Shown here: positions 1-18,072 of the stretch, piece by piece | Position numbering within the stretch: the stretch's first letter is position 1 | Layout: the number at the start of each line of letters is the position of its first letter | DNA from: Umbelopsis ramanniana AG | Taxonomy: Eukaryota; Mucoromycota; Umbelopsidomycetes; Umbelopsidales; Umbelopsidaceae | DNA length: 64,000 nucleotides | Assembly: GCF_025399195.1 (NCBI RefSeq) | Contig: NW_026252106.1 | Coordinates: 186,001-250,000, forward strand | Direction: 5' to 3' | Notes under the pieces: model-generated | Seen by the model: only the letters and a program-made list of their open reading frames with translations | Told to the model about the DNA's origin: nothing | Database searches by the model: none | Made by a program: the position numbers and the translations under genes

Positions 1-194
1 ATGGCCGTGTCTGGGAGCCTCGAACTTTCTATAAGTGGAGGAAGAATAGACATAGTGTCAGACTAAGTTCATTGACTCGAACATTGGCTCGAAGCGGATA
101 ACATCAAGTCATTGCCGCCATATCAAGAAAGCCTGAAATATGATCATACCTGTGAGACTAGAGAGAAGGATAGTGTTAGCAAGATATGATACGT

Positions 195-15814: not shown

Positions 15815-18072
15815 TTACGTTGCTTTATTTTCAGATTCATGGCAGAGAACGATAACATCGCCAGTTCGTCTCCAGTCGTCATGGAAATGTGAATTGAAGA
15901 ATCGTGCGCACTATTGGATAAATGATATTTAAATACTGCCTCATAAGCTCAATAGCTGTTGTGTATAGCGGCGTCTTACCTCTATGTAATGTCCTTGGCC
16001 TTTCAACAAATTGCCTACCGTTCCATTCCCGCCTTGATTCGGCATTTCCAGCAAGGAGTCAAATACAACCACATAGTTGGGGGACGATTTAGATGAAGTT
16101 GATAAGACCCTTTCGGTTATAAATAGGCTTGGATTGGCATAGAACTTGTCTGCTTCATCTTGATAATTTTTGCCGGACCTGTAACGTAGAGAACGATGAG
16201 TATCGCGACTACAATGACATGAAAAAGCAAACCCAGCTTACGTTTTCAATGGAGGCTCACAGGTCAAAAACCACGCATCCACATTCTTATCATGTATGAC
16301 AGATTGCCAAGGCGTGGAGTGACATGGCATCAAAAACGCAACTTCCATATCGTAATTGGTATACAGGCGACTGAGTTCTTGAGCTTCGGTTCTGATGTAG
16401 TTTACAGCATCTATGACGCCTCTTTGATGCGTCGTTGTTGTATATACTCCCATGGAAATGTTAATGGCCATGGTTGCAAGGACTGCCCACTTTCGCCACG
16501 CCAGAGGCAATTGCGATAATCCGTAGGCTGCAAAAATATGCATGATGGGTACAATAGGGTATATGAAGCGGAATTCTTTGTGCGCTAACAAACTGTACAC
16601 AGCTACAGTCCACGCCGTAACATACTTCAATGAGCGAACTCTGTCATTCAGTACCTGGTCTTTACCAATCTGATACCAACCAAAAAGGAAAGTGGGTAAA
16701 AGGCACACCAAAACGACTGGTATTCCTTGGCTCAGGTACCAGTGCCAAGAATGGATACCATAGAAAATTGAGATAGCTGATACAACGTTTAACTCGAAAA
16801 ATTTGCCAGGAGTGAATACTGGTTCAGAAAACAAGTTGCCTAGATGACCGTCATAACACCATGTATCCACTATGGTCGAAAAAGCTACCGCTGCCAAGCT
16901 AATGTGCCAAAATAGTGAGTCATCGAAAAAAACAATGAGGGTTACGAAGTGGAAATACAAACCCTGATACTTACAATATAGCAGCGGTATTGGCAATAAT
17001 CGCTTTAATATGAGAGCGAGCTTTGAAGATTAATTGCAATCCCAAGAAGGCCCATATCAAGGCATTAGTGGGTCTAATGATACAGGCCAGAGCTGCCCAA
17101 GCGAGAGAAATTCGGAAGTCTCTGAATGACAATTAGTAGATATTAAATAAAGTTAGTTAACTTTCATGGAGTACTACTGTATCATGATAAGAGGAGGTGA
17201 AAGTACCGAATCCAAGCTCCACTGGCATAGGCAACAGTGCCATCAATCGGCCAATAGTTGAGTGCAATGACTGTGAGGACCATCTCGAGAGAATTGGACA
17301 GAGTTCTAGCTGCCATATGGAAGTTGAAGAAGGACACCAAAGTACAGAAAAGCTTCGGTACAAGAGGCATAATTGTTGTTAGTTATTTGACCGACTGCTA
17401 TATAATGCATGGCCGATGACAAAGATGCTTACAACTGTGGGGGCAATGGTCTCCCCTACCGTCTTCTTTGCCAGGCGGTATGTAAAGTAGTCCGCTACAG
17501 CTGCAAGCACAGATTCTAAATATCTAGGAGCAGTGACCTATAAGGAAAGCAGTTGAGAATTTGTCAAGTGTGGGCTTCCCATAGATGAGATATTGACTTA
17601 CAAAGAAAGAGGTATTTTCTAGCCTTAAAAATTGCAGGCATTTGTACAGAGCTGCGAATATCAGCGGATGAGCAAAGCTTCTTATCCTTTCTCGCCATTC
17701 CCATGTTAGATAGCCATATGTATTAACCAAGCAAATGCAGAATCAAGGAAAAAATGGTTGTCGGTCATAAAAAAATGAACACAGATATTTTTTAACCCAC
17801 CAATTTTGCTCAATTGTTAAAAAAGGATATCCAAATGCCAGGCGATGCGCCACCTCTTGAGCTTGCCAATATTCGTCCGGATTATCATACGTTTGCGTGA
17901 TCGAAGCAATGCCAACTCGAAACAATAAGCAAATGCCAAAGATGATCATGCGCGAATTGCGATTGGATGCATAGACCTTTCGTAGTTCTTCTTCTGATAT
18001 TGAAGGTTCCGACATGGGTTCTTTTGCTTGAGCGGATTTTTGTCGTTTCCGATTCTTTGCTGCTATGGGCAT
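15815..18072 (-). CDS. GPI10: GPI mannosyltransferase III (PIG-B/Gpi10)
   Basis: Proposed exons in coding order: 18072-17831, 17719-17602, 17537-17433, 17352-17207, 17121-16975, 16898-16242, 16178-15980, 15910-15815; 569 residues. This ER multi-pass GT22 enzyme adds the third mannose (alpha-1,2, from dolichol-P-mannose) to the GPI anchor core. Support: the lumenal catalytic loop TYDNPDEYWQAQEVAHRL, then GYLTWEWRERIRSF, the GT22 signature HKEFRFIYP near residues 357-365, many hydrophobic segments, and a C-terminal RFFNSHFHDDWRR block typical of PIG-B. The first intron (17830-17720) is not GT-AG but AT-AC. An earlier in-frame TTG exists, but the first ATG is at 18072. It is divergent from the F-box gene with about 170 bp between starts, so promoters probably overlap. 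Confidence 0.93.
17720..17830 (-). other. U12-type AT-AC intron in GPI10
   Basis: The intron begins ATATCCTTTT (matches the U12 5' splice site ATATCCTTT) and ends TTAATAC. TTCCTTGAT, a match to the U12 branch site TTCCTTRAY, lies at 17750-17742, with its A 23 nt before the 3' end. Splicing gives AFG-YGYLTWEW with the frame intact, the conserved Gpi10/PIG-B sequence. No AG occurs between any usable GT and the start of that motif, so a GT-AG alternative cannot produce it. Confidence 0.88.

Follow-up and report, generated by a model that had tools for sequence, protein, structure and literature searches.

Evidence for a U12-type AT-AC intron in the GPI10 gene of Umbelopsis ramanniana and for minor spliceosome components in the same genome

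Introduction

How is the first intron of GPI10 removed in Umbelopsis ramanniana, given that it begins with AT and ends with AC? A first-pass annotation of the 64,000-nucleotide stretch of contig NW_026252106.1 analyzed here (the window) proposed a U12-type AT-AC intron in a fungal GPI10 gene and, from this single case, a genome that keeps a working minor spliceosome. U12-type introns and minor small nuclear RNAs (snRNAs) have been reported in two other members of the Mucoromycota, Phycomyces blakesleeanus and Rhizopus oryzae (PMC2846911). Among human minor introns, 24% are AT-AC and 69% are GT-AG (PMC8280824). We examined the gene, its protein homologues, and the rest of the genome for signs of minor splicing.

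Results

The spliced gene encodes Gpi10. The 550-residue spliced translation (Table 1) matched Pfam family Glyco_transf_22 (PF03901) over residues 44 to 455 (8e-92). Among the best 120 of 1,577 homologues, names included GPI mannosyltransferase 3, Gpi10p, and phosphatidylinositol glycan class B. In the same set, the closest entries came from U. vinacea (88% identity) and U. ramanniana (90%, with 81% of the query covered), followed by U. nana and U. isabellina (65 to 66%) and then mostly by Mucorales. The domain match and the named homologues thus bear out the initial assignment of the gene to fungal GPI10.

Table 1. Features of the GPI10 locus (positions within the window)
Feature	Position	Strand	Description
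GPI10/PIG-B gene (GPI mannosyltransferase 3)	15941..18072	-	7 exons, 550 aa spliced; gene model, Pfam, homologues
U12-type AT-AC intron, first of GPI10	17720..17830	-	111 nt, phase 2
5' splice site ATATCCTTTT	17821..17830	-	complements the 5' terminus of the U11 found here (AAAAAGGG)
Branch site TTCCTTGAT	17742..17750	-	A at 17743 is the branch base, bulged in a possible pairing with U12 GAGCAAGGA
3' splice site AC	17720..17721	-	23 nt past the branch A
Intron 2, GT-AG	17538..17601	-	gene model
Intron 3, GT-AG	17353..17432	-	gene model
Intron 4, GT-AG	17122..17206	-	gene model
Intron 5, GT-AG	16899..16974	-	gene model
Intron 6, GT-AG	16179..16241	-	gene model

Read on the minus strand from 17830 to 17720, the AT-AC intron runs ATATCCTTTTTT...TTTTTTCCTTGATTCTGCATTTGCTTGGTTAATAC. 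It lies early in the gene, after codon 80; the exon on its 5' side ends in ...QAQEVAHRLAFG, and the next exon reads on as YGYLTWEWRER. Its first bases fit the U12-type 5' splice site rule RTATCCTTT, and its branch site fits TTCCTTRAY near the 3' end, with the branch A and the final base of the intron 23 nt apart. Splicing out 17830 to 17720 (AT-AC ends, phase 2) brings the conserved AFGYGYLTWEW back in frame, while retention leads to a TGA stop within the branch motif. The window contains a single instance of the combined pattern TATCCTT-(21..81)-TTCCTTRAY, against a mean of 0.01 in 100 shuffles.

We enumerated all GT, GC, and AT donors, beginning 60 nt upstream of the AT-AC donor, against all AG and AC acceptors. 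No GT-AG or GC-AG intron restored AFGYGYLTWEW, and a conventional intron in place of the AT-AC intron is thereby ruled out. Nine placements (AT-AC, GT-AC, and GC-AC) restored the motif, all with the acceptor at 17720, and among these nine only 17830 to 17720 gave it ungapped. The first-pass annotation had excluded a GT-AG intron on the ground that no AG lies between donor and motif; there is one, at 17810, and the exclusion itself stands on the enumeration. Since ATAT is repeated on both sides, the junction can slide by 0 to 4 nt with an identical mRNA, and the AT-AC placement was chosen among the slid junctions because it fits the U12 consensus.

Elsewhere in the window, 18 further RTATCYTT sites were found, two of them with a YCTTRAY-type branch within 150 nt. 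Inspection of four of these sites, including both with such a branch, yielded no additional U12 intron, and these candidates were rejected. The sequence GTATCCTT occurs five times in the window (23349, 37996, 62061, 62290, and 63060) versus 1.43 expected, a count reached in 1 of 100 shuffles; the four of these sites inspected closely held no U12 intron.

Several protein entries from related fungi break at the same junction. The TWEW motif was present in 100 of the 120 listed homologues, and the spacing from DEYWQ to TWEW was 15 residues in 95 of the 100 that carried both, as in the spliced window protein; the five exceptions carry inserts. All four Umbelopsis entries in this set of the best 120 of 1,577 (P0001 to P0004) lack YGYLTWEW. 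Those of U. vinacea and U. nana run into the intron (GYPFLTIE and GYPFLKL, respectively), that of U. isabellina skips the exon after the junction, and that of U. ramanniana begins past it. The loss of the motif from these four entries is apparently due to an unmodeled AT-AC intron.

Read in phase 2 after GG, ATATCC would encode GYP, and GYP stands at the junction in 5 of the 120 listed homologues. GYPK occurs at the same residue in Rhizophagus irregularis (P0026) and R. clarus (P0028), and Phlyctochytrium arcticum (P0097) reads GYPF at the junction; the other R. irregularis entry (P0038) is free of GYP. Because GYP is what ATATCC gives in phase 2, these protein entries suggest that an AT-AC intron at this position is likely in Umbelopsis and Rhizophagus and possible elsewhere. 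Judged by eye, the Endogone and Jimgerdemannia entries have an apparent wrong-frame start just before the motif, as a missed junction would produce. In the next entries, mostly from Mucorales (P0005 to P0023), the motif was present in 19 of 19, a count that has no bearing on whether those genes hold the intron. A count of alignment breaks over the 120 homologues did not single out the junction: six breaks lay within three residues of it, and several variable loops had more. Taken together, the entries suggest that the intron is probably old and misannotated, its position probably common to other early fungi.

The genome encodes several minor spliceosome components. Searching the 22.8-Mb assembly with Rfam covariance models, we found U11 (60.7 bits, gathering threshold 39), U6atac (43.4 bits, threshold 33), and a full-length U12 that scored 36.5 bits, under its gathering threshold of 53. 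The 5' end of the U11, AAAAAGGG, is complementary to the 5' splice site of the AT-AC intron, and the U6atac contains AAGGAGAGA. A second U6atac-like locus was weak (28.7 bits, below threshold) and was rejected. CCACAA lies upstream of all three snRNA genes, at -67 (U11), -65 (U12), and -54 (U6atac), and may be the fungal snRNA promoter element. In the U6atac gene it is joined by TATAAAT at -39 and a T run at the end of the gene.

Two covariance model searches and two pattern searches of the genome returned no U4atac, a result that is not evidence of absence because none of the built-in control genomes could show a fungal U4atac to be within the model's reach. One model candidate (19.7 bits, E value of 4.1) was rejected: its pairing with U6atac was matched or beaten by 292 of 300 shuffles, and the search that gave it also had matches in 11 of the 14 control genomes that were named. 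The first pattern gave 8 matches, against 30 for its reversed control and 12 to 15 under a Markov null, and the second gave 31, against 4 and 11 to 21; both sets were set aside. At the 3 of the 31 second-pattern loci that were inspected, CCACAA was absent upstream.

Two minor-specific proteins, U11-35K and the 65K/RBM41-type RNA recognition motif (RRM), were sought in a one-way search. With the human protein as query, a U11-35K homologue was found in two blocks on one contig (1e-32). Block 1 is 66% identical over human residues 7 to 38, which precede the region matching U1-70K chains. Block 2 holds one stop, by inference a putative intron. For the C-terminal RRM common to 65K and RBM41, a homologue was found at 6.7e-19 with 49% identity.

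Further candidate U12-type introns lie elsewhere in the genome. Three intron-pattern searches of the genome gave 14, 34, and 34 matches. The reversed-pattern control gave 3, 9, and 2, although this kind of control was off several-fold in either direction for the U4atac patterns (8 versus 30; 31 versus 4), and Markov nulls (orders 1 and 3, derived from the window sequence) expect 3 to 4, 18 to 28, and 8 to 17 per genome. The genome-wide excess is modest. There were 54 distinct candidates, of which 52 were inspected (C72 and C82 were left), acceptance being our judgement and not a blind score. The 42 candidates from the first two patterns yielded 20 accepted in-frame introns; of the 22 left out, 10 had Y before TATCC and 12 had no plausible junction or a frame that was open unspliced. 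The third pattern added 12 candidates, and none of the 10 inspected was accepted.

The 20 accepted introns comprise 14 AT-AC, 5 GT-AG, and 1 AT-AG. They are 78 to 118 nt long, fall in phases 0, 1, and 2 in 7, 8, and 5 cases, and have a branch-to-end distance of 11 to 24 nt. The remark in the first-pass annotation that 23 nt is longer than usual does not hold among them, as 23 to 24 nt is found in 5 of the 20. When all 20 were checked, a Pfam match spanned the junction in 8, of which 7 were over the family cutoff (Gpi10, Gaa1, DUF3402, ChAPs, zf-TFIIIC, VPS11, and RasGEF_N) and one, RabGAP-TBC, was below it. Seven of these eight are AT-AC and one is GT-AG. In one further accepted intron a SURP match starts at the junction, and the remaining 11 have an open frame alone, a match that lies elsewhere in the protein, or a match below the cutoff. 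The four weakest are L044, with a sub-cutoff REC102 match, and L043, L034, and L014, with no Pfam match. From these matches, 8 introns appear well supported and the other 12 less so; we set the well-supported count at 8 and not 20 because the reversed control is unreliable and the excess over the Markov null is partial. The AT-AC share (14 of 20, or 7 of the 8 well supported) is high, but it comes from a pattern search and not a census.

Several of the accepted introns lie in genes of some interest. Two of the 20 are in genes of the GPI pathway: GPI10 and, on the same contig, a GAA1-like gene (GPI transamidase subunit) with an AT-AC U12-type intron (L015; G000:C20:35654-35745). Two related TBC-type genes (L029 and L063), which we take to be TBC1D20-like, have AT-AC introns at the same position in phase 2, a placement suggesting that the intron was present before the genes duplicated; of the two, only L029 has a Pfam match, below the cutoff. 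A GT-AG U12-type intron lies just before the SURP module of another gene (L037), presumably SF3A1-like, a component of the major spliceosome.

With these results, both parts of the initial proposal gain support. The U12-type AT-AC intron at 17720..17830 agrees with the sequence, the junction, and the genome. A working minor spliceosome is supported by U11, U6atac, the sub-threshold U12, and two minor-type protein homologues, as well as by the seven additional introns whose Pfam matches span the junction. The check on snRNAs and proteins that accompanied the proposal thus turned up most of the parts, with U4atac not found; a genome devoid of all minor snRNAs, which was to count against it, is not what we observed, U11 and U6atac both being over threshold.

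U12 carries a C opposite the branch-site G. The U12 of this genome has a C in the branch-pairing stretch where the Rfam consensus has U (GAGCAAGGA versus GAGUAAGGA). In duplex calculations, TTCCTTGAT scored -8.7 with the genome's own U12 versus -6.8 with U substituted, and TTCCTTAAT scored only -5.2 with the own U12. The branch site has G and not A in all 20 accepted introns, both being allowed by the pattern. G is also the background preference, in 137 of 180 CCTTRAY occurrences in the available sequences (accepted introns included), and was present in 17 of 22 rejected candidates (Fisher P = 0.049). The background rate of 0.76 to the 20th power is 0.004, or about 0.1 for the 8 well-supported introns alone. 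Because the background also favors G, coevolution of U12 and branch site is suggestive only. That minor splicing has drifted as a unit in Umbelopsis, with the C in U12, a G at the matching branch position, and AT-AC as the dominant class, is a tentative idea that we consider less probable than its absence; if true, it would be a case of visible snRNA-intron coevolution in a small fungal set.

Discussion

We consider it very probable, on sequence grounds, that a true U12-dependent (minor) intron of the AT-AC class lies near the start of Umbelopsis GPI10 and that the genome keeps a minor spliceosome for a small set of introns. U11 would pair with the 5' splice site ATATCCTTTT and U12 with TTCCTTGAT, leaving the branch A bulged, and U6atac would replace U11 at UCCUU. 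Removal of the intron would join AFG to YGYLTWEW; were it retained, the protein would stop inside the intron. The same machinery would serve this intron and a small set of others, 8 well supported including that of GPI10 and up to about 20.

Major (U2) AT-AC introns exist (PMC8280824), and the GPI10 intron might be spliced by the major spliceosome, as a few animal AT-AC introns are. This is very improbable here: both the 5' splice site and the branch site conform to the U12 consensus, base pairing of the two with the U11 and U12 of this genome is feasible, and seven other introns of this type have Pfam matches spanning their junctions. That the apparent intron is the product of a pseudogene or an assembly error has still less to commend it: the rest of the 550-residue protein is open across five ordinary introns, and GYPFL at the same place in U. 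vinacea and U. nana indicates that related genomes carry the 5' part of the insert too.

A different proposal, compatible with minor splicing of GPI10, is that the intron is regulated and partly retained, so that slow minor splicing limits Gpi10 and hence GPI-anchor output, with retained transcripts ending at the TGA of the branch motif. The early stop produced by retention would fit such a role, A-type minor introns are spliced less efficiently in human cells (PMC8280824), and a second GPI-pathway gene, GAA1-like, also has an AT-AC intron. Two GPI genes in 20 may nevertheless be coincidence, and we regard regulation of this kind as unlikely.

Minor splicing of GPI10 would place Umbelopsis beside systems already described. 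Published work already covers minor introns of Mucoromycota, to which the GPI10 intron adds a case. Phycomyces and Rhizopus, likewise Mucoromycota, follow the same 5' splice site rule, RTATCCTT, have minor introns of the AT-AC and GT-AG classes, and contain minor snRNAs (PMC2846911), whereas Umbelopsis belongs to a different order, Umbelopsidales. The ratio of AT-AC to GT-AG introns is 14:5 in Umbelopsis (7:1 among the well supported) versus 9:8 in Phycomyces and 1:2 in Rhizopus, both of the last two by a Burge-method count (PMC2846911). Rhizophagus irregularis is also an early fungus with minor introns, snRNAs, and proteins; it is reported to have 205 minor introns and all four snRNAs (PMC10639083), compared with 8 to 20 introns and no U4atac found in Umbelopsis. 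An AT-AC majority is known from Blastocystis (77%, 196 of 253), which in contrast is an unrelated lineage with hundreds of minor introns (PMC10639083). An assembly of Apophysomyces (Mucorales) is reported to have U6atac without U4atac and also to lack U12 (PMC5604411); in Umbelopsis we likewise found U6atac and no U4atac, but with a sub-threshold U12. In a full-text search of the available literature, none of the papers dealt with the minor spliceosome of an Umbelopsis species.

These results would extend the known retention of the minor spliceosome among fungi to the Umbelopsidales, and they yield a small number of introns suited to testing. At the AT-AC intron, the deposited gene models are broken in all four of the listed Umbelopsis Gpi10 entries, and standard predictions tend to miss such introns. 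The GPI10 intron may be a common position marker across early fungi, and loss-of-function tests of minor splicing could make use of a filamentous fungus of this kind, small and with few minor introns.
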